A stretch of 55,889 nt of DNA, from positions 1 to 55,889 of the forward strand of contig QHZE01000437.1 of NCBI GenBank assembly GCA_003225335.1, written 5' to 3'. Positions 6,268-52,913 of the stretch are shown one piece after another. The notes beneath the pieces are model-generated. The model saw only the letters and a program-made list of their open reading frames with translations, was not told where the DNA came from and did no database searches. Source of the DNA: Acidobacteriota bacterium. GTDB taxonomy: Bacteria > Acidobacteriota > UBA6911. Positions within the stretch are counted from its first letter, which is position 1. Every line of letters starts with the position of its first letter. The translations under genes were made by a program, and so were the position numbers.

Positions 6268-6442
6268 GGGCAATTAGAAGTAAGAGTCAAATTTTTTGGC
6301 GCTACCGTCCGGTGACCGTTTTTCGTGGTGGCGGTTTTTAGTTTACTGGCCACGAATTCCACGAATTAACACGAATTGAATTCTTCACAGCTTCTGAGGT
6401 AGTTCACGGCAGCGTGAATTGAACCCACTTCCAATTGCATCC
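6268..6442 (+). mobile_element. MITE-like element, copy 3 (internally shortened), inserted at the ccmF stop
   Basis: Ends GGGCAATTAGAAGTAAGAG and, inverted, CCCACTTCCAATTGCATCCC match the element at 196-410. The inside keeps GGCCACGAATTCCACGAATT and the TTCACGGCAGCGTGAA sub-terminal palindrome, but the second half of the central palindrome is lost (about 175 bp). It is flanked by CCTCTTTGA (6259-6267) and CCTATTTGA (6443-6451), eight of nine identical. The right copy contains the ccmF stop codon. Confidence 0.75.
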
Positions 6443-9181: not shown

Positions 9182-9322
9182 GCGCAATCAGATATGGGAG
9201 TCAATTCATGCCTTTAACTCGCTCAGAAGCTGTGGAGACCCCAATTCGTGTTAATTCGTGGAATTCGTGGCCTGTAAAACCCGCCACGAATTCCACGAAT
9301 CTCGCGAAAACGATCACTGCGG
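9182..9322 (+). mobile_element. MITE-like element, decayed copy 4
   Basis: The left end GCGCAATCAGATATGGGAGT is a degenerate terminal repeat. The CTCAGAAGCTGTGGAGA and AATTCGTGTTAATTCGTGG segments and the CCACGAATTCCACGAATC arm match 52689-52913. The right end is gone, replaced by a GATTGACGATTG word repeat, so no target duplication can be read. Confidence 0.6.
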
Positions 9323-14221: not shown

Positions 14222-14536
14222 GTTTGGAGTTCAGCCTTCAGGCTGTCCTTAGGGCTCGCGCAGAAATAACTTCACATTTTGCTGCTGGCCCCCAGGCCCG
14301 CTGACGAGGCGCGAGTGACGAGCTATACCCGGGGCGGTATGTGAGGAGCGGGCGACAAAGCCAGCGGGCCTGAGGGCCGCAGCCCGAAGGGGCGCGGCGG
14401 CGAAGGGCGCGTATCGGCTTTGTTGCCGCGCCTCGCATCTGCCCACCCGGCGCTCGCGCCAAAATGTGAATTTATTTCTGCGCGAGCCCTTACAGCCGGT
14501 TCTCCGAGCAGACTAAAGCCTGAACTCCAAACCTGA
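14222..14536. repeat. GGAGTTCAG-foot hairpin pair bracketing a TIR element
   Basis: TTTGGAGTTCAGCCTTCAGG at the left and AGACTAAAGCCTGAACTCCA at the right are inverted partners; the stems differ (CCT/AGG versus the other arm). Between them lies the 240-bp element 14251-14490. The gap 14212-14553 has no coding signal. Confidence 0.75.
14251..14490. mobile_element. 240-bp non-coding element with 31-bp terminal inverted repeats
   Basis: AGGGCTCGCGCAGAAATAAC (14251 on) runs on to TTCACATTTTG, and its inverted copy ends at 14490; the 31-bp arms differ at one base. The interior is GC rich, has further internal inverted stretches and no convincing frame. No clear target duplication is visible. It resembles a MITE but is unrelated in sequence to the GGGTGCAATTA family. 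Confidence 0.7.
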
Positions 14537-15793: not shown

Positions 15794-15972
15794 GTTCACG
15801 CTTTTGGTTGCGGCCGAATGGCTACGCCGTGTTGATCCGTCGCCGTGTCCCATAGCGCGTCCTAAAAAAATACGCTACCGTATCCGTGAAGGGCACTGTT
15901 TGGTAGCGAGGGGGGCAGCGGACATCCGATGCCGGATTTCGGATTTGGCAAACTTCAATCCGCAATCCGGAA

Positions 15973-16575
15973 TCAGCAATCTGCAATCGAAGGGCGCCTG
16001 AAGATCCGGCTCAGGCCTCGGCGCAGGGCCCCGAACAGTTTGACCACGACGTAAATGGAAAGGGAGACAAGCAGGGAGACGAGGACAAGGGTAATGAGCG
16101 GATGCACCGCTGACATCCAGGCCAGGAATATCGCCAGGCCGTCCTCACCCAGGCTGAGGATCCAGTTGCTCACCGGCTCGGGGCTGGCGTTGACCGCGAT
16201 ACGCGTCGAAGCCTTGCTCCCATGGGACGTCAGAGCGACGCTGCCCGCCAGGAGAGCAGCGGCTAAGCGCCACTCTTCGGAGACGCTGCCAACCGCACTA
16301 TACGCAAGCAGAGCCGCGGCGGGCGGCCGGATAAAGGTATGTATCGCATCCCAGACACTGTCTACGTAAGGAATCTTGTCCGCCACAAACTCGACAAGGT
16401 AGAGAGTCAAGGCAATCCCCACCACCCAGGGATTCGCCAGGATCTCGATGGAGTGTGGAAGCTGGACGACCCCATTCCGGTGAAGAAGGCCCAGCGTGGC
16501 TACGGTCGCATAGAGATTGAGGCCGGACGCGAACGAGGCCCCCAGGATAAAGGCAAGGCTGTGTAAGGAGGTCAT
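15973..16575 (-). CDS. DUF4126 membrane protein
   Basis: 200 residues from ATG 16575, which has AGAGGA six bases upstream; the ATG at 16581 has no room for a ribosome site. About five hydrophobic segments are present, with the early GASFASGLNLYATVATLGLLHR motif and the VDSVWDAIHTFIRPPAAALLA and GSVALTSHGSKASTRIAVNASPEP regions of the family. Function is unknown. The last residues, SIADC and the stop, are encoded by the CAATCTGCAATC word repeat, so the C terminus has been re-written by repeat DNA. Confidence 0.75.
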   Translation of the reverse strand: MTSLHSLAFILGASFASGLNLYATVATLGLLHRNGVVQLPHSIEILANPWVVGIALTLYLVEFVADKIPYVDSVWDAIHTFIRPPAAALLAYSAVGSVSEEWRLAAALLAGSVALTSHGSKASTRIAVNASPEPVSNWILSLGEDGLAIFLAWMSAVHPLITLVLVSLLVSLSIYVVVKLFGALRRGLSRIFRRPSIADC

Positions 16576-17222: not shown

Positions 17223-17515
17223 GGTTTGGAGTTCAGCCTTCAGGCTGCACTGTCCTTGAGCAGGCTAAAGCCTGAACTCCGAACAAGAAATGTCTGAGAA
17301 GCTGTGAAAAAATCCTATCCGCCCGTCCGCTCGCTCACGCTTCTGTGCGTCAAAAAAGCGTCATTGGCCACAGAGACGCAGAGCCACGGAGTATGCTCGC
17401 CACGAATTTCACGAAAATAACGGGGGCTGTTGGTGCCACCTTGCGTCATGCTTCACCAACGACATTCACCGTCTGCAATCGAAGAAAATTCGTGAAATTC
17501 GTGAAATTCGTGGCA
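17223..17515. repeat. Compact GGAGTTCAG pair followed by word palindromes
   Basis: TTTGGAGTTCAGCCTTCAGG (17224 on) and GCAGGCTAAAGCCTGAACTCC (to 17280) form an intact pair about 60 bp long with different stems (CCTTCAGG versus GGCTTTAGCC). Next come GACGCAGAGCCACGGAG words (17366-17390) and a CCACGAATTTCACG / TTCGTGAAATTCGTGG palindrome (17399-17514) like the MITE core but without its ends. No gene is seen in 17223-17641. Confidence 0.7.
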
Positions 17516-17641
17516 AAGTGTTTCCGGCGTTGGTTCTTTTCTCCGGAGTTCCTCCCGAGGCTGAGCATTAGGCCACTCCCCCTAGCGCTTCCACTCCAGG
17601 GCTCGAACAATGCCATGGGCTTTGCCGATAAAGAATAAGCT

Positions 17642-21979: not shown

Positions 21980-22316
21980 ATCCCCAGATCCCCAATTCGT
22001 GGCCGGTTTTTCGTGCGAAATAAACCACCTCTCGATTACCCACAGAGACACGGAGACACCGAGAAAATCTTGGCTCTGTGGCTCCGTCTCTCTGTAGCTA
22101 AAGATTGGGTTTGAGAAAGGGAGCAACTTGGGAGTGCCAACGAATCAACGTTCGCGATTCCTTTGCGGACTTAGCGCCTTCGCGGTGAAACTGAGCCCGA
22201 ATCAACCGCCAGGACGCGAAGAGCGCGGAGGGCTCGCCGAGACAGAACAAGACCAGTGTTGCCAAACGAGGGGAGGATTTGCGGGTTCAAATCGTCAATC
22301 GTCATTCGTCAATCTT
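21980..22316. repeat. Cluster of word palindromes in the gap before the ABC operon
   Basis: CCCACAGAGACACGGAGACA faces TGGCTCCGTCTCTCTGTAGC (22030-22099). TTTGCGGACTTAGCGCCTTC GCGG words recur in reverse at 22205-22230. AATCGTCAATCGTCATTCGT (22283-22312) reaches into the rlmB stop codon. No gene is seen in 21928-22301. Confidence 0.65.
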
Positions 22317-23039
22317 CGTGAGGCGCTGTCGGATGACTTCGTAGAGGACGATTCCCGCGGCAACGCTTACGTTGTAAGAGCGCACTTTCCCGCGCACCGG
22401 GATGCCCGCCAGGAAGTCGCATTTCTCTCGCACCAGGCGATGCATGCCGGTCCCTTCGTTCCCGAAAACGAGGGCCGAAGGGACGGTAAAGTCGGCTTCC
22501 CACAAAGTTCTGCCAGACTCCGCATCCAGACCGGCAATCCAATACCCTTTTTCTTTTAGCATTCCCAGCAGCTGCGCGACGTTTGGGACACGCGCCAGCT
22601 TAACGTGCGACGCCGCGCCCGCACTGGCCTTGACTGCGGCCGCGTTGAGGGCGGCGCTCCTGCGCCTCGGAAGAAACACCCCATCGGCCCCGGCTACTTC
22701 CGCCGAACGAAGGATAGCTCCCAGGTTGTGCGGATCTTCGATGCCGTCCAGGATCATCAAGAGTCCAGGCGGAGTTGCCTGCTCGAGAATATCGTCGATT
22801 TCGAAGGTGGCCATTTCGGCCACATAGCAAAGAACTCCCTGGTGCCTCTGGCCTTCGGATTTTCGATCCAGCCACTCCCTGGCTTCGAATGAAAGAGCGA
22901 TTCCTTTCGTTCGGGTCAGGTCGATGAGCTCCTGGATCCTCGGACTGCGCTGCCCGCGTCGAACGCAAACCCGTTCGACGCGGCAATCGACCGCCTTCAG
23001 CGCCTCCAGTGTGGGATTGATGCCGCAAAGGATAGCCAT
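22302..23039 (-). CDS. rlmB: 23S rRNA (guanosine-2'-O-)-methyltransferase RlmB (SpoU/TrmH family)
   Basis: 245 residues from ATG 23039 (MAILCGINPTLEALKAVDC); a longer reading adds MAPWPLKS from a GGGGCCAAGG word repeat and is rejected. The N-terminal L7Ae-like substrate domain is followed by the knotted SPOUT domain, with LDGIEDPHNLGAILRSAEVAGADGVFLP (motif 1), VFGNEGTGM (motif 2) and YNVSVAAGIVLYEV (motif 3) including the SAM-binding knot. The predicted target is the 2'-O of G2251 in 23S rRNA. The terminal codons and TGA lie in GACGAATGACGATTGACG word-repeat DNA. Confidence 0.88.
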   Translation of the reverse strand: MAILCGINPTLEALKAVDCRVERVCVRRGQRSPRIQELIDLTRTKGIALSFEAREWLDRKSEGQRHQGVLCYVAEMATFEIDDILEQATPPGLLMILDGIEDPHNLGAILRSAEVAGADGVFLPRRRSAALNAAAVKASAGAASHVKLARVPNVAQLLGMLKEKGYWIAGLDAESGRTLWEADFTVPSALVFGNEGTGMHRLVREKCDFLAGIPVRGKVRSYNVSVAAGIVLYEVIRQRLTKIDE

Positions 23040-23182: not shown

Positions 23183-24414
23183 AGCAGCGCGACCGCCTGC
23201 GCCGAGATGCCTTCTCCACGACCCTCGGCGTTCATGCCTTCGGAGGTCTTCGCCTTGACGTTCACCTGTTCCACGGAAATGGAGAGGGCCTCGGCAACAT
23301 TGCGCCGCATCGTTTCCCTGCAAGGCGCGAGCTTCGGCCGCTCGGCAAGCAGGGTGGCATCGACGTTTTGGATGCTCCACCCGGCCTCCTCAATCCTGCG
23401 GCGCACCTCGCACAGGAATTCCAGGCTCGAACGGTTTCGATTGGCGGCGGCGTCGTCCGGGAAGTGTTGCCCTATGTCTCCCAGGCCGGCCGCTCCGAGC
23501 AGGGCGTCGCAGACGGCGTGAGAGAGAACATCGGCGTCAGAGTGCCCCTCCAGCCCCTTCTCGAAAGGAATCTCGACCCCGCCAAGCACCAGTTTCCTTC
23601 CTATGACGAGGCGATGATAGTCCATTCCGTGCCCGATGCGCATCGGCCCGGTCCTTTCTCGGGATAGCCGGCCCGGGTTTTGATCCGAAACACCCGAAAT
23701 CAGAATTTCCGCAACTCGCAGGTCCAGAGGATGCGTGATCTTGATGTTCGCGGGCGAACCTGGAACCACCCGGACTCGGTGGCCAGCCCATCGAACCACG
23801 GAGGATTCATCAGTGCCGGCGAAACCCGTTCTCGCAGCGCTCTCCAGCGCACGCCGGAGTATCCCGGCGGCAAATACCTGGGGTGTCTGAATGGCATACA
23901 ACTGCTCGCGCGGAGGAGTCGCGATTACAAGGCCACGCCTCGAAACTCGCTGGATGGTCTCGGTCGCTGGGAGTCCGGCCACTGCGCCACCGTCTTGTGC
24001 GGCCGCCTCGATGACACGCCTCATGGTTTCAAGATCGCAGAGGGGACGGACCCCATCGTGTACCATGATCAGATCGGGCTCGGGGGATACTTGCGCGACA
24101 CCACGGCGCACCGATTCCTGCCGGGTCGGCCCGCCGCGCGTGTATTTGACCGGGAATCTCCAGGAGCTGCCCAGCATCTCCTTTGCGCGCCTGATGTGGG
24201 AGGCGGGGAGAGCAATGACCACCTGGACGACATCGTCAAGGGAAGCGATGCGTTCGAGAGTACGAAGGAGTATGGGCTTGCCTGCCAGGCTGAGGAATTG
24301 CTTCGGAAGCCAACCCCCGATTCGAGCGCCCGCCCCTCCCGCCGCCAGGACAACCGCCACTTTGGGGTTGACGATGGACGATGGACGGTGGACGAATGGA
24401 CGCCTTGGTTTCAT
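23125..24414 (-). CDS. ispDF: Bifunctional IspD/IspF (MEP isoprenoid pathway)
   Basis: 429 residues if ATG 24414 is used; the first 17 residues are word-repeat DNA and a GTG before AVVLAAGG is the likelier ancestral start. The IspD half has LAAGGAGARIG...PKQFLSLAGKPIL, MVHDGVRPL and TDESSVV (2-C-methyl-D-erythritol 4-phosphate cytidylyltransferase). The IspF half, from MRIGHGMDYHRL, has the metal-binding Asp/His pair, GLEGHSDADVLSHA and VKAKTSEGMN (MEcPP synthase). The fusion is common in Acidobacteriota and alpha- and epsilon-proteobacteria. The C-terminal AKGAKGRRGKGGKRVNG is encoded by a GGGGCAAA word repeat and is not part of the IspF fold. Confidence 0.93.
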   Translation of the reverse strand: MKPRRPFVHRPSSIVNPKVAVVLAAGGAGARIGGWLPKQFLSLAGKPILLRTLERIASLDDVVQVVIALPASHIRRAKEMLGSSWRFPVKYTRGGPTRQESVRRGVAQVSPEPDLIMVHDGVRPLCDLETMRRVIEAAAQDGGAVAGLPATETIQRVSRRGLVIATPPREQLYAIQTPQVFAAGILRRALESAARTGFAGTDESSVVRWAGHRVRVVPGSPANIKITHPLDLRVAEILISGVSDQNPGRLSRERTGPMRIGHGMDYHRLVIGRKLVLGGVEIPFEKGLEGHSDADVLSHAVCDALLGAAGLGDIGQHFPDDAAANRNRSSLEFLCEVRRRIEEAGWSIQNVDATLLAERPKLAPCRETMRRNVAEALSISVEQVNVKAKTSEGMNAEGRGEGISAQAVALLQAKGAKGRRGKGGKRVNG

Positions 24415-24475
24415 GGGGCGACGCGATGAAAGCCTTAATCGTCAGTCGTCAATCGCCAATCGTCAATCGAATTTA
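24360..24475. repeat. Word repeats (GACGATGG and GACGATTG) at the ispDF start
   Basis: TTGACGATGGACGATGGACG and, inverted, AATCGTCAGTCGTCAATCGC CAATCGTCAATCG surround the ispDF ATG and stop just after the PIN-TRAM stop codon. The two arms use slightly different words. Confidence 0.6.
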
Positions 24476-25561: not shown

Positions 25562-25943
25562 GGATGAGCTCCTTCGAGGTAGGAAACATTGTTGTATCAA
25601 CAGAATAGGATGATTGCGGCGCCGGAGCGAGTAGGAGTGCCGGCGTGAAACGCGTTTCCGGCGGCACCGGTGTTATCAGGAGTGCCCGTAAGAGTATCCA
25701 GACCCGCTTCTCCACAGAGTCCATAACTCCAAGCCGTGTATTACTGCGTTCGCGCCTGATGGAATGGGCCAAGGCCACCAAACTTGTCAGTTCGAAGACC
25801 TATAGGCACATTTCGGAACAATCTATCATATTCTTCACATCTTTTTTGAAAAAAATCCCATACCACCGTCCCCTTGCTCACGCGCCCACGGCGGAAGGCA
25901 GAAGGCGGAAGGCAGAAGGCGTGAGTGTTACGAACCGAGGCAC
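25562..25943. other. Intergenic region, no gene seen
   Basis: The only repeat is GGCGGAAGGCAGAAGGCGGA AGGCAGAAGG (25891-25922), a run of the same AGAAGGC word found at 27352-27445 beyond the other end of radA. The rest is the leader of the PIN-TRAM gene. Short frames here lack ribosome sites and family features. Confidence 0.5.
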
Positions 25944-27329
25944 TCAGGGTTCGAAGATTAAATCCGAAAGGTCCGAGATTGCTTTTACTGGAAGCAACTC
26001 CACTTCTTGCACCTGGTCCACCAAGGGGAGATTACCGCTCGGCAATATGCATTTCCGGAAGCCCAGGGCTATGGCTTCACGTATCCTGGGATACACCTGG
26101 CTCACCGGTCGAACTTCCCCCGATAGTCCCAACTCTCCAAAAAGAACTGCGTCTCGGACCAGGGGACGATTCCGGAAGCTGCTGAGAACGGCAGAGACGA
26201 TACCGAGGTCCGCCGCCGGTTCATGGATTTCCAGACCTCCGGCAGCGTTGACATAAATGTCGCAGCCCATCAGATGAAACCCCAGGCGCTTCTCGAGCAT
26301 TGCGACCAGCAGCGAGATCCGGTTGTAATCCATTCCCGAGGAGACGCGTCTTGCCGTGCTGTACTGGCTGTCGCTCACCAAAGCCTGCACTTCTATGAGA
26401 AGGGGCCGCGTCCCCTCCAGTGCGCAGATGACAGCGCTTCCCGGATGCGAGACTTCTCTTTCGCGCAGAAACAGGGCCGAAGGATTCTGGACGGGGAGCA
26501 ACCCACGCGCGGTCATTTCAAAGACACCGAGCTCGTTAGCGGCGCCGAAGCGGTTCTTCACTGCGCGGACGATGCGGTGGTTGTGGTGCCGCTCTCCCTC
26601 GAAATAGAGGACGGCGTCAACGATGTGCTCAAGGGCCTTCGGACCTGCGATGGAGCCGTCCTTTGTCACGTGGCCTATGAGGAAAACCGGAACGTGTTCT
26701 GATTTCGCGAGATGGAGTAGCTGCGCCGCTACCTGGCGCACCTGGCTTATGCTTCCGGGCGCCGAATCGAGCGCCTCGGAGAATGCCGTCTGCACAGAAT
26801 CCACCACCAAGAGCGCAGGACGTAGCTCCTTCACTGCATCGATTATCTTTTCGAGGTTCGACTCGGCCAGAAGATAAATCTCCTCCTCGATCCCCGGCCC
26901 CTGACTGCTGGCGCCCAGGAGCCGCTCCGCCCGCATTTTGATCTGCTGCGCCGACTCCTCACCGGAAACGTAAAGAACGCGTCGGCCTCGCTCCTGGAGC
27001 AACTGAGATATCTGTAAGAGGAGAGTGGATTTTCCCACCCCGGGCTCGCCTCCCACGAGCACCAACGATCCAGGGACGATCCCCCCTCCCAGCACCCTAT
27101 CGAACTCGGGATTCGAGGTTGCAATACGTGGTGCGTCCGCCGAGGAGATTTCGCTCATGCGAACGGGGCCGGCATTACCGTCCGTCGCACGCGATCTCTT
27201 CGTGGAGGACGCGACCCGCCTCTCTTCCACAAAAGAGTTCCAGCTGCCGCAATCCGGGCAGCGGCCCAGCCACTTGGCGGCCGCGTATCCGCACGCCTGG
27301 CATTCGAACTCGGATTGCTGCCTGGACAT
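25944..27329 (-). CDS. radA: DNA repair protein RadA
   Basis: 461 residues, GGGAG seven bases upstream of ATG. The C4 zinc finger (Cys10, Cys13, Cys24, Cys27) is followed by a RecA-like ATPase with GEPGVGKST (94-102), LLVVDSVQT (Walker B), the RadA-specific KNRFG motif (AVKNRFGAANELG) and a Lon-protease-like C-terminal domain (GLEIHEPAADLGIVSAVLSS). It drives branch migration in recombination. Same-word AGAAGGC repeats flank both ends of the gene. Confidence 0.95.
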   Translation of the reverse strand: MSRQQSEFECQACGYAAAKWLGRCPDCGSWNSFVEERRVASSTKRSRATDGNAGPVRMSEISSADAPRIATSNPEFDRVLGGGIVPGSLVLVGGEPGVGKSTLLLQISQLLQERGRRVLYVSGEESAQQIKMRAERLLGASSQGPGIEEEIYLLAESNLEKIIDAVKELRPALLVVDSVQTAFSEALDSAPGSISQVRQVAAQLLHLAKSEHVPVFLIGHVTKDGSIAGPKALEHIVDAVLYFEGERHHNHRIVRAVKNRFGAANELGVFEMTARGLLPVQNPSALFLREREVSHPGSAVICALEGTRPLLIEVQALVSDSQYSTARRVSSGMDYNRISLLVAMLEKRLGFHLMGCDIYVNAAGGLEIHEPAADLGIVSAVLSSFRNRPLVRDAVLFGELGLSGEVRPVSQVYPRIREAIALGFRKCILPSGNLPLVDQVQEVELLPVKAISDLSDLIFEP

Positions 27330-27351
27330 GAGCCTGCTCCCTGGCAGAAAC

Positions 27352-27448
27352 CAGAAGGCAGAAGGCAGTAAGCACGTGCCTTCCGCCTTCTGCTTTCCGC
27401 CTTCTGCTTTCCGCCTTCCGCTTTCCGCCTTCCGCCTTCTGCTGTATC
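27352..27448. repeat. Word palindrome (AGAAGGC / GCCTTCT)
   Basis: CCAGAAGGCAGAAGGCAGTA faces a long run of CCTTCCGCCTTCTGCTTTCC-type words (seven or more units). It fills the gap between alr and radA. Confidence 0.7.
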
Positions 27449-27458
27449 GCCGCGACCT

Positions 27459-28627
27459 TTAAGCTGTTGAGGTTCCCAGTGCGGGATAGACTCGGGGAAC
27501 GCGAGGGCTGATACCGCAGAGGATTTCGTACGCGCTGGTGTTGAGCCAACACGCCCAGGCCGAAGCGTCCACCCGGCAGTGAGTGCTTGAACCCAAAAGA
27601 ATTACTTCCTCGCCCTCCTGGATTTCGGAAAAATCCGTCACGTCTATGACGATCATATCCATATTGACGGACCCGATAACGGGAACCAGGCGATCGCGTA
27701 CGATAGCCCATCCTTTGCCCGTAAGCGAGCGCCGATAACCGTCCGCGTATCCGACGGGGAGGGTAGCCGCCCGGGTTGTTCTCTCCGCGGCGAACAGCCT
27801 GTTGTAGCCAACCGATGCTCCTGGCGGGACCGTGCGGATCTGGCCGATCCGTGATTTAAGGGACAGCACCGGCCGCAGAGATTCCGGGCAGCGCTCGGGA
27901 TCAGGGAAATAGCCATAAAGGGCAATTCCGGGGCGGGCGCTCATGGAGCGAAGCCCGGGATGATAGAGAAGCCCGGCGCTGTTTGCCAGGTGCAGTTCCC
28001 CGGGATCCAGGCCACGATCGCGAACGAGTCCGACGGCCTGATGAAATCTCCTCGTCTGCTCCAGCGTGAAGGACGCGTCCTCTTCCTCAGCGCTCGCCAG
28101 GTGGGAGAACGTCCCGCGCAGGCGCAAGCTGTCGCTTGCCAGGAGTGCGTCCAGGACAGCCTCCATATCGTTCCAGGGAACTCCCAGACGGTTCATTCCC
28201 GTGTCGATTTTCAGATGGACCGGCACGCGCTCCCCGGCAGCACGCGCAGCCTCGGCCAGACGTCGAATCGACGAAACGGAGTAGACTGCGGGCATCAGCC
28301 GGTATCGCAGGGCTTCCTTCTCCTGGCCAGGCCAGCACCCTTCCAGCACCAGGATCTCCTGTCCGACGCCCGCCTCACGGGAACAGAGCCGTGACCGTAA
28401 GCATTGGCCTTGATGACCGGAATGACCCGAGGAGTTCCGATTGCGGATTGTGGATTGGGGATTGCGGATTTCGGATTGGGGCCTGAGGCGGTTCCTTCAA
28501 TCGCCAATCCACCATCCGCAATCTGCAAAGCGCAATCAAGTAAGCCGCAGAGGGTTCGGTAGTTGTGGAGGAGGGCGCCGAGATCGATCTCTGCCCAGGT
28601 CGGGCGCCCGGGATCAGGAGGCCGCAT
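27459..28627 (-). pseudogene. alr: Alanine racemase, disrupted by a word-palindrome insertion and a frameshifting deletion
   Basis: ATG 28627 lies just after the dnaB stop. The N-terminal TWAEIDLGALLHNYRTLCGLL is interrupted by about 36 residues encoded by a GGATTGCGGATT word palindrome (28439-28541), then resumes VIPVIKANAYGHGSVPV, which carries the PLP lysine. Near 28372-28384 the frame shifts: REAGVGQEILVLEGCWPGQEKEAL continues in the next frame, and the roughly 25-30 residues normally between these segments are missing. The rest (VHLKIDTGMNRLG, ARPGIALYG, VGYNRLFAAERTTRAATLPVGYADGYRR with the catalytic Tyr) is well kept. As written the two catalytic residues are in different frames, so it is either a recent pseudogene or an assembly collapse. 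Confidence 0.8.
28439..28541. repeat. Word palindrome inside alr (GCGGATT / AATCCGC)
   Basis: GATTGCGGATTGTGGATTGG and GGATTGCGGATTTCGGATTG face CAATCGCCAATCCACCATCC GCAATCTGC. It is read through in frame in the alr 5' region. Confidence 0.75.
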
Positions 28628-28634
28628 TGCCGGG

Positions 28635-29978
28635 CTAGGGCTCCTGCCAGAGGTTGGCAAATTTGGTGAACTGCTGGATGAAGGCGAGCTCGAGTTTTCC
28701 AGTGGGACCGTTGCGCTGCTTGCCGATGATGATCTCGGCCACCCCGCTGTTCTCCTGGGTAGGATTCACTTCGTCTTCCCGGTAGATAAACAGCACGAGA
28801 TCTGCGTCCTGCTCGATGGAGCCCGATTCGCGCAGATCGGAAAGCTGCGGTCGGCGGTCACCCTTGCGCGACTCGACGGCCCTGTTTAGCTGAGAGATGG
28901 CCAACACCGGCACGTTGAGATCCTTTGCCAGAGCCTTCAGCCCGCGAGATATCTGGGAAATCTCCTGAGTCCGATTCTCGTAACGCGGGCCGGTGCCGGA
29001 CATGAGCTGCAGGTAGTCGACGATCAGCAGATCGAGGCCGTGCTCGGCCCGCAGCCGGCGGGCTTTGGAGCGCATCTCGACAATGGAAATACCGGGCGTG
29101 TCATCGATGAACATCTTTGTCTGGGAGACCGCGCCGGCCGCGCGGCCCAGCTTGCTCCATTCTTCCTTGTTGATAAAGCCGGTGCTTACGCGGTGCGAAT
29201 CCACCTCTGCCTCGGAGCAGAGCAGTCGCTTTACCAGCGACTCTCTGCTCATTTCGAGGCTGAAAATTCCCACGGTCTGATGTTTTTTCAGCGCCACATG
29301 CTCGGCGATATTCAAGCAGATGCTGGTTTTGCCGAGACCCGGACGGGCCGCCACGATGATCAGGTCGCAACGATGCAACCCTGCCGTCATTTTGTCCAGT
29401 TCCGTGAATCCGGTCTCGATTCCCGTCACGGGGGTCCTGCGATTGGCGACTTCCTCGATTTGCTTATAGACGTCGCTGACGAGAGGTTCAATCGGCAGGA
29501 AGCCCGTTCGGAACTGCTGCCCGGCGAGCTCGAAGATCACCTTCTCGGCGCTCTCGAGGATCTCCTGAGGCGATTCTTCATTCTGGTAGCTGCGCGCGGT
29601 GATTTCATTGGAGATCTGAATCAATCGGCGGAGCGTCGCCTTTTCTTTGACTATCTGCGCGTAATACTCCACGTTGGCGGCCCGCGGGAGGCCGTCGGTG
29701 AGACTGGCCAGATAGGCGGGACCGCCAGTGCTCTCGACCAGATTGGAGCGGCGCAGTTCGTCCATCAAGGTGATCAGGTCGATCGCCTTGCCTGCGCTCG
29801 TCAGGGTGATCATCTTCTCGTAGATCTTTCGATGGCTGTCGAGATAGAAATCCTCCTTGCGCAAGATCTCCTGCACCGGGAACAGCGCTTTGTCGTCGAG
29901 CAGGATGGCGCCGAGGATCCACCGCTCCGCGTCCAGATTGTTCGGCAGTGTTTTTTCCAGGCTCAAGTCGGTGGCCAT
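28635..29978 (-). CDS. dnaB: Replicative DNA helicase DnaB
   Basis: 447 residues. The N-terminal domain (LPNNLDAERWILGAILLDDKALF) binds primase. The RecA-like domain has AARPGLGKTSICLN (Walker A), FSLEMSRESLVKRLL, LLIVDYLQLM (Walker B) and KALAKDLNVPVLAISQLNRAVE with the arginine-finger SDLRESGSIEQDAD region. It is a normal length and has no intein. It follows rplI across a 426-base repeat-filled gap. Confidence 0.95.
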   Translation of the reverse strand: MATDLSLEKTLPNNLDAERWILGAILLDDKALFPVQEILRKEDFYLDSHRKIYEKMITLTSAGKAIDLITLMDELRRSNLVESTGGPAYLASLTDGLPRAANVEYYAQIVKEKATLRRLIQISNEITARSYQNEESPQEILESAEKVIFELAGQQFRTGFLPIEPLVSDVYKQIEEVANRRTPVTGIETGFTELDKMTAGLHRCDLIIVAARPGLGKTSICLNIAEHVALKKHQTVGIFSLEMSRESLVKRLLCSEAEVDSHRVSTGFINKEEWSKLGRAAGAVSQTKMFIDDTPGISIVEMRSKARRLRAEHGLDLLIVDYLQLMSGTGPRYENRTQEISQISRGLKALAKDLNVPVLAISQLNRAVESRKGDRRPQLSDLRESGSIEQDADLVLFIYREDEVNPTQENSGVAEIIIGKQRNGPTGKLELAFIQQFTKFANLWQEP

Positions 29979-34585: not shown

Positions 34586-34589
34586 ACAA

Positions 34590-34745
34590 TTGCGGATTTC
34601 GGATTGCGGATTGCGGATTGGCAGACTCGCGATCGTGTATCTGCAAGCCCCACGCGCTTTTCAATCCCAAATCCCAAAACCGCAATCTGAAATCTTTTCC
34701 TTGAATCCGCAATCCGAAAAACCGCAATCCGAAATCGGAAATCCG
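34590..34745. repeat. Word palindrome (GCGGATTTCGGATTG / CAATCCGAAATC)
   Basis: TTGCGGATTTCGGATTGCGG ATTGCGGATTGG faces CAATCCCAAATCCCAAAACC, GAATCCGCAATCCGAAAAAC and CGCAATCCGAAATCGGAAAT. It separates ispE from tRNA-Gln. Confidence 0.75.
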
Positions 34746-39174: not shown

Positions 39175-39235
39175 GTTTGGAGTTCAGGCTTTAGCCTGCC
39201 CCGGTCAGTGCAGCCTGAAGGCTGAACTCCAAACC
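39175..39235. repeat. Compact GGAGTTCAG-foot hairpin pair
   Basis: TTTGGAGTTCAGGCTTTAGC CTGC faces GCAGCCTGAAGGCTGAACTC CAAAC within 60 bases. The left stem is GGCT/AGCC and the right stem CCTT/AAGG, i.e. different but each paired. Confidence 0.8.
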
Positions 39236-39439: not shown

Positions 39440-39486
39440 GCATGACCCAATCCTCAGGGTCTCGGGCAAAGTCACCAATTTCTTGG

Positions 39487-39592
39487 AAAATGACAAATGA
39501 CCAATGACAGATGACAAATCTTCCGGGGGCAATCCGATCGCGATCCGGTCGATTTGTCATTTGTCATCGGTCATTTGTCATTTGCGAATCCG
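39487..39592. repeat. Word palindrome (TGACAAATGACC / GGTCATTTGTCA)
   Basis: AAATGACAAATGACCAATGA CAGATGACAAATC faces GATTTGTCATTTGTCATCGG TCATTTGTCATTTG. It ends four bases before the truB stop. Confidence 0.75.
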
Positions 39593-40625: not shown

Positions 40626-40863
40626 GAAACCACAGATGAACACCGATCTGTACTACTAACCCGAAAATCCTTTGCAATCCGGCAAGGATTTTCCCAACAT
40701 TCTTGGGCTCTTCTTTGGAGTGCGCAAGCTTGCTTGCGCCTTGACGGACTCGGAACAAACTCCACATCGAAGAAAAGCGGCAGCAGGCTGCCGCACTCCA
40801 AAGAGCACAGTGGACCATAGTTCTGGTTGCGGCTGCGCGGCTCTGTGTTCATCTGTGGTTTTG
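40626..40863. repeat. Composite palindrome with mixed-stem REP pair
   Basis: Outer arms are GAAACCACAGATGAACACCG and CTCTGTGTTCATCTGTGGTT T. Inside lies CGAAAATCCTTTGC / GGCAAGGATTTTC, then TTTGGAGTGCGCAAGCTTGC TTGCGCC (40714 on) facing GCGGCAGCAGGCTGCCGCAC TCCAAA (to 40803). The foot TTTGGAGTGCG is kept but the two stems (CAAGC/GCTTG and GGCAGC/GCTGCC) are unrelated. GGTTGCGGCT closes the unit. No gene in 40508-40877. Confidence 0.8.
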
Positions 40864-52036: not shown

Positions 52037-52155
52037 GTGCAATTAGAAGTGGGAGTCAAAGTTCTCCACGCTCGAGGCACCTTTTGGAGTGCGGCGACTT
52101 GTCGCCGCTATGGCCTGGGCGTCAGAACGAAAGCGGCGACAAGTCGCCGCACTCC
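52037..52155. repeat. Lone MITE end and GGAGTGCG-foot hairpin pair
   Basis: GGTGCAATTAGAAGTGGGAG (52038 on) is a MITE terminal repeat without body. TTTTGGAGTGCGGCGACTTG TCGCCGC (52083 on) faces GCGGCGACAAGTCGCCGCAC TCC (to 52155), an intact pair with identical stems. The gap 51964-52325 shows nothing else. Confidence 0.75.
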
Positions 52156-52325
52156 ATATTTGTCCGTCTTCTGCGCACATCCGGCGGCAGAAACTGAATC
52201 GAGGTCCGAAGGGCCCGCACTCCGACTCTACCGTATCTTCGGCGTCTCGTGGTTACTCAAATGGAGTTATGATGGGCAGGCTCCGCTTGCGTGAGCTGTC
52301 GTGCTTCTTTTCTGAAGAGCGAAAA

Positions 52326-52688: not shown

Positions 52689-52913
52689 GGGTGCAATTAA
52701 GAAGTGGGAGTCAATTCACGCTGCCGTGAGTTCCTCAGAAGCTGTGGAGAATTCAATTCGTGTTAATTCGTGGAATTCGTGGCCAATAAAAGCGACCACG
52801 AATTCCACGAATTTCACGAAAACGATGACTGCCATTTGGATATCATCGGTTTGCATTACAATTTTTCAAAGTCTCTCAGGCCGCGCTGGTGTCTCCTGCT
52901 TTTAATTGCACCC
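52689..52913 (+). mobile_element. MITE-like element, copy 2 (best preserved) with 9-bp target duplication
   Basis: Ends GGGTGCAATTAAGAAGTGGG and CTGCTTTTAATTGCACCC. The body has TTCACGCTGCCGTGA, CTCAGAAGCTGTGGAGA and the central AATTCGTGTTAATTCGTGG / CCACGAATTCCACGAATTTC palindrome. It is flanked by the exact direct repeat TGCCTTCGA (52680-52688 and 52914-52922). Confidence 0.88.

Follow-up and report, generated by a model that had tools for sequence, protein, structure and literature searches.

Does the uncultured Acidobacteriota bacterium behind this genome still possess a working alanine racemase, or has its only recognizable alr gene recently been destroyed? The window, i.e. the whole stretch of 55,889 nt that was analyzed (G000:C148:1-55889), belongs to a draft MAG of 7.54 Mb in 795 contigs that is 96.7% complete. 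The alr reading region (27459..28627) extends on the minus strand from the ATG at 28627 to the stop at 27459. It is placed between two genes on the same strand that are intact according to family profiles, namely dnaB (28635..29978, stop at 28635) and radA/sms (25944..27329, start at 27329), giving the gene order dnaB > alr > radA. Among the relatives, alr directly follows dnaB in G004, G007, G011 and G012 and directly precedes radA in G001. A protein alignment of the window alr with 11 acidobacterial Alr proteins was used for comparison, in which L022, L041, L038, L037 and L035 are the five closest relatives and the identity to the relatives' Alr amounts to 53-59%. The search of named genomes with this alignment retrieved alr genes of Acidobacteria MAGs, one of which is the nearest named relative, but none of them is nearer than the relatives already compared; the same search with the C-terminal part by itself gave no match. 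Homology across both parts of the gene and the conserved dnaB-alr and alr-radA adjacencies identify the region as a broken alr locus.

As assembled, the gene falls into two parts. The N-terminal part (28382..28627, minus strand) encodes RPTWAEIDLGALLHNYRTLCGLL and RVIPVIKANAYGHGSV with the PLP lysine motif in its own frame, and the other frame holds the 298 stop-free C-terminal codons (27486..28379, minus strand) with HLKIDTGMNRLG, the catalytic Tyr and the whole Ala_racemase_C domain. For this C-terminal part, the identity to the closest relatives is 53-59%. Searches by tblastn with the relatives' proteins split the gene every time into one match in frame -2 and another in frame -1. The C-terminal part alone reaches 250 bits against positions 69-367 of TIGR00492, which together with PF01168 and PF00842 we take to be the reference for alanine racemase (e.g. 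PDB 4y2w, 1sft). The locus resembles this reference in the PLP-Lys motif, the TIGR00492 match and the dnaB neighborhood shared with the relatives, whereas it deviates in being 73 nt short after the PLP motif, in its two frames and in a loop of 36 instead of 4-16 residues. The distance from GHG to the Arg of R-x-A-G-I is 27 residues (81 nt) in all five closest relatives. At this place the window reads GGC-TCTGTTCC-CGT, i.e. 8 nt (28380-28387) are left up to the conserved Arg (28379-28377), hence 73 nt are missing at 28379/28380 (junction 28379..28387, minus strand), 24 aligned columns after GHG are absent and the frame changes. The motifs KANAYGHG with the PLP Lys (codon 28411-28409) and SVGYNRLF with the catalytic Tyr (codon 27806-27804) are both still present in the DNA, in different frames. 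These data agree with the sequence-only reading, which had placed a loss of 25-30 conserved residues near 28378 and had assigned the two catalytic residues to different frames. Thus, no single open frame runs across both Ala_racemase domains and the N-terminal PLP barrel lacks 24 aligned residues. Judged from the fold, a product without these residues would be unable to form the barrel, so that the gene as assembled is predicted to yield no active racemase, with the deletion alone being sufficient for that. Both pieces are open frames, and a programmed frameshift or a two-piece enzyme might be considered to restore the activity; however, no recoding brings back a barrel from which 24 columns are absent, programmed frameshifting was rejected for this reason, and we regard such a rescue as practically negligible. 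No split Alr is known to us.

The second change affects the loop before the PLP-lysine strand, a variable region that is presumably situated between this strand and the first helix, as in established Alr structures. In the relatives the join reads ...LL-(4 to 16 residues)-R(L/V/I)IPV(I/V)KA, with 4 residues in L022, 10 in L041, 11 in L038 and 16 in both L037 and L035, whereas 36 residues (28430-28537) separate RPTWAEIDLGALLHNYRTLCGLL from RVIPVIKANAYGHGSV in the N-terminal frame of the window. They consist of an in-frame, stop-free heptad-word palindrome of 99 nt or 33 codons (28439..28537, minus strand) followed by GTP (28430-28438). The earlier estimate of about 36 residues added in frame before the PLP-lysine motif agrees with this loop, within which the palindrome lies. 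The insert edges coincide with the palindrome edges, and the loop without the palindrome would have 3 residues, about like L022, where the site is empty. The palindrome is built of GGATTGC heptads; the plus strand shows the words GATTGCG, GATTGTG, GATTGGG, GATTGCG, GATTTCG and GATTGGG, then a short middle and the inverted words CAATCGC, CAATCCA, CCATCCG, CAATCTG and so on. Its ends are flush (GATTG...CAATC), its arms are complementary to 92% over 26 nt and to 73% over 41 nt, and its RNA fold has a z of -4.3 relative to dinucleotide shuffles. The bare heptad CAATCCG/CGGATTG is free of stops in all six frames. Being a multiple of three and stop-free, the insert is compatible with a working enzyme; probably it need not break alr by itself, and disruption of the enzyme by the insert alone is unlikely. 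In this regard, the same loop of L038 (G012) contains the word-like CCACAATACGCAATCC, which is close to CCACAATCCGCAATC of the window, and the alr of G012, itself intact, has a CCAAACT heptad array joined in frame to its N-terminus (L192:11871-11913). These G012 sequences suggest that this region of alr can tolerate word-like sequence. Hence, of the earlier statement that alr is broken twice, the two independent changes hold, but only the deletion appears to be disabling.

The palindrome is one member of a much larger population. When up to 2 mismatches are allowed, the genome contains the pattern CAATCCGCAATCCGCAATC 896 times and its reversed control 0 times, and triplet shuffling of a 409-kb sample left no heptad arrays; a chance origin of the pattern is thus excluded. 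Blast searches with the 99-mer gave 89 matches, most of which cover one arm only or both arms at 70-78% identity. The 409-kb sample, 81% of which is coding, contains about 119 heptad arrays, none of which is situated 60 nt or more inside a called gene (a 120th array called inside a gene turned out to be a run of N). This gene-body count was used for the arrays, since a coding-score test on ORF-spanning arrays missed alr, the N-terminal part of which is too short. The alr copy is therefore unusual in its place, because heptad arrays lie almost all between genes. Neighboring arrays are inverted in 52 of 59 pairs at a slightly looser threshold. Within the window, heptad-word elements were found at 15948-15988, 22289-22317, 24366-24470, 25888-25921, 34588-34743 and 39484-39588, and a palindrome of the word class AAGGCGG, with no strand assigned, is located between the alr stop and the radA start (27344..27443). 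Including heptad hairpins collected from the sample loci L172-L191, the word classes comprise AATCCGC, AAATGAC, AATCGTC, ACCTCAG, AAGGCGG and others, and each arm pairs with an arm of the class to which it belongs. In the listed pairs of AATCCGC, it is the GGATTGC arm that leads.

Similar elements have been described in other bacteria. Rickettsia palindromic elements (RPE) are palindromic repeats of about 100-150 nt with many dispersed copies, nearly half of them in genes (PMC10969869). The alr palindrome shares with them the dispersal in many copies and the stop-free, in-frame insertion into an unrelated housekeeping gene, whereas it is composed of 7-nt words instead of one conserved sequence, has kin with unrelated middles that are almost all intergenic, and belongs to a population in which many in-gene copies with a conserved encoded peptide are lacking (0 of the about 119 sampled arrays). 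By analogy, it would work like an RPE without being a member of this family. Heptanucleotide tandem repeats are known from Nostoc/Calothrix and Xanthomonas (PMC4692102), and TAACTGA repeats from Beggiatoaceae (PMC4679880). They likewise form short arrays of 7-nt units mainly in non-coding DNA, whereas the arrays found here are mostly inverted and hairpin-capable, fall into several word classes and have another unit sequence. Other repeats occur in the window as well. A second dispersed REP-like family is represented by four imperfect palindromes at 17224-17284, 39175-39234, 40712-40804 and 52085-52156, which have similar ends (TTTGGAGT...ACTCCAAA) but differ in their middles. Arrays of the 9-nt words AATTCGTGG / CCACGAATT, also as inverted pairs, occupy 287-354, 6350-6377, 9243-9270, 17399-17516 and 52755-52822, and a 42-nt inverted repeat (86%) around 156 nt at 14251-14490 is MITE-like in shape.

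The central question is whether the 73-nt deletion exists in the cells or only in the assembly. Both halves keep their conserved residues without any further lesion, hence the deletion must be recent, or else an artefact of the assembly or of strain variation. It is quite conceivable, though we would put it somewhat short of an even chance, that the insert is real and the deletion arose through faulty assembly or scaffolding, or because the assembler followed a minority strain, while the living cells carry an undamaged alr including the 36-residue loop. Such an error would fit with the undecayed halves, with the presence of Ddl beside a sole alr and with the full-length Alr found in 14 of 14 genomes of the same family. 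Moreover, N gaps, some of them inside genes, reveal that the contigs of this MAG are scaffolds, so that a mis-join is possible; a run of 76 N directly follows the window end (L190:7333-7408, G000:C148:55890-55965), and 146 N interrupt a gene at L181:11084-11229. However, there is no N run at the deletion junction, no long repeat spanning the 73 nt was seen in the relatives, and the missing stretch was not found on any contig of the assembly, which together do not favor a plain repeat collapse. The other scanned genes of the window are intact by family profiles, and among the conserved genes screened for splits, in a small sample of about 88 covered 300-bp bins, alr alone was broken. The junction itself may also point to an event in the cell. 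On its left, agreement with the relatives extends through the GTG codon for the Val of SVPV, and on its right it starts with CGT GAG (R-E), such that the codons conserved left and right share CGTG. The overlap, which is short and partly deduced, would be compatible with a short-repeat deletion.

No second alr was recognized in the 96.7%-complete genome, and the window gene appears to be its sole recognized alr. Other proteins with PF01168 are three BhcC/D-threonine-aldolase-like PLP enzymes (G000:C738, C308 and C644, the last cut by the contig end), YggS and LysA; the proposed search for a second racemase has thus found none. No D-amino-acid transaminase was recognized in the genome, IlvE being the only class IV aminotransferase found. 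Ddl is intact and full length, hence D-Ala is presumably needed. It is unlikely a priori that a single-copy gene of the essential type is lost when no substitute is recognized, and the remainder of alr looks as fully constrained as it would if the deletion were confined to the assembly. On the other hand, alr is missing from related genomes. No TIGR00492 match over the cut-off was obtained for G021, G022, G034 and G036 (genus g10, 90-98% complete), G026 (a single contig), G027 and G044, and Ala_racemase_C had no match in 6 of 6 tested genomes of this kind. Ddl exceeds the cut-off in these Alr-less Acidobacteriota, and none of the class IV aminotransferases checked in them reaches the cut-off for D-amino-acid transaminase. 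Pertinent literature on the absence of Alr in Acidobacteria was not found. These profile matches indicate that loss of alr with retention of Ddl occurs in the phylum, and such a loss would therefore be possible in the window lineage.

One might go further and assume that alr had become dispensable earlier, because another D-alanine maker, for example one of the three BhcC-like fold-III PLP enzymes or the route used by the alr-less relatives, had taken over, so that palindrome and deletion both arose under relaxed constraint. The retention of Ddl without Alr in several relatives and the odd position of an array in a constrained gene like alr speak for this scenario. However, the insert is in frame, stop-free and placed exactly in the variable loop, the 298 downstream codons keep all motifs where a long-relaxed gene would carry more lesions, and the BhcC-like proteins lack an Ala_racemase_C domain, which makes it highly improbable.

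Weighing these observations, we consider a real recent loss of alr at least as likely as an assembly fault or a second racemase. The sequence-only reading had offered just the latter two; no second Alr was found and repeat collapse is not obvious, a mis-join is possible, and a recent real loss has to be added as the third option. The explanation to which we incline, with slightly better than even confidence, is a single alr that tolerated a palindrome insert and then suffered a real, very recent deletion. The 99-nt palindrome may first have entered, or grown in, a length-tolerant surface loop, where it would have been tolerated with the enzyme still working, as with the Rickettsia palindromic elements. 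Later, and very recently, the 73 nt right after the PLP-lysine motif would have been lost, perhaps between short direct repeats, an event that cost the enzyme part of its PLP barrel and changed the reading frame. D-alanine might then come from some of the cells or from another enzyme. We infer the order of events, the tolerance of the insert, the deletion in cells and the supply of D-alanine by some cells or another enzyme. The parts as such belong to known kinds, i.e. an in-frame palindromic element and a recent pseudogene or assembly fault. A broader proposal is rather speculative: the 7-nt-word hairpins might form a large, apparently undescribed family, of which the alr copy is a rare in-frame entry into a housekeeping gene favored by the stop-free GGATTGC word, in a lineage on its way to losing Alr like several of its Ddl-bearing relatives.

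If the deletion is real, a Ddl-bearing acidobacterium would just have lost its only recognizable alanine racemase, which would suggest an unrecognized source of D-alanine; the alr-less, ddl-bearing relatives raise the same question. If it is an artefact, the locus is a warning against drawing conclusions on individual genes from draft MAGs. In both cases, the in-frame word palindrome in alr illustrates how a housekeeping enzyme can gain peptide from heptad hairpins.
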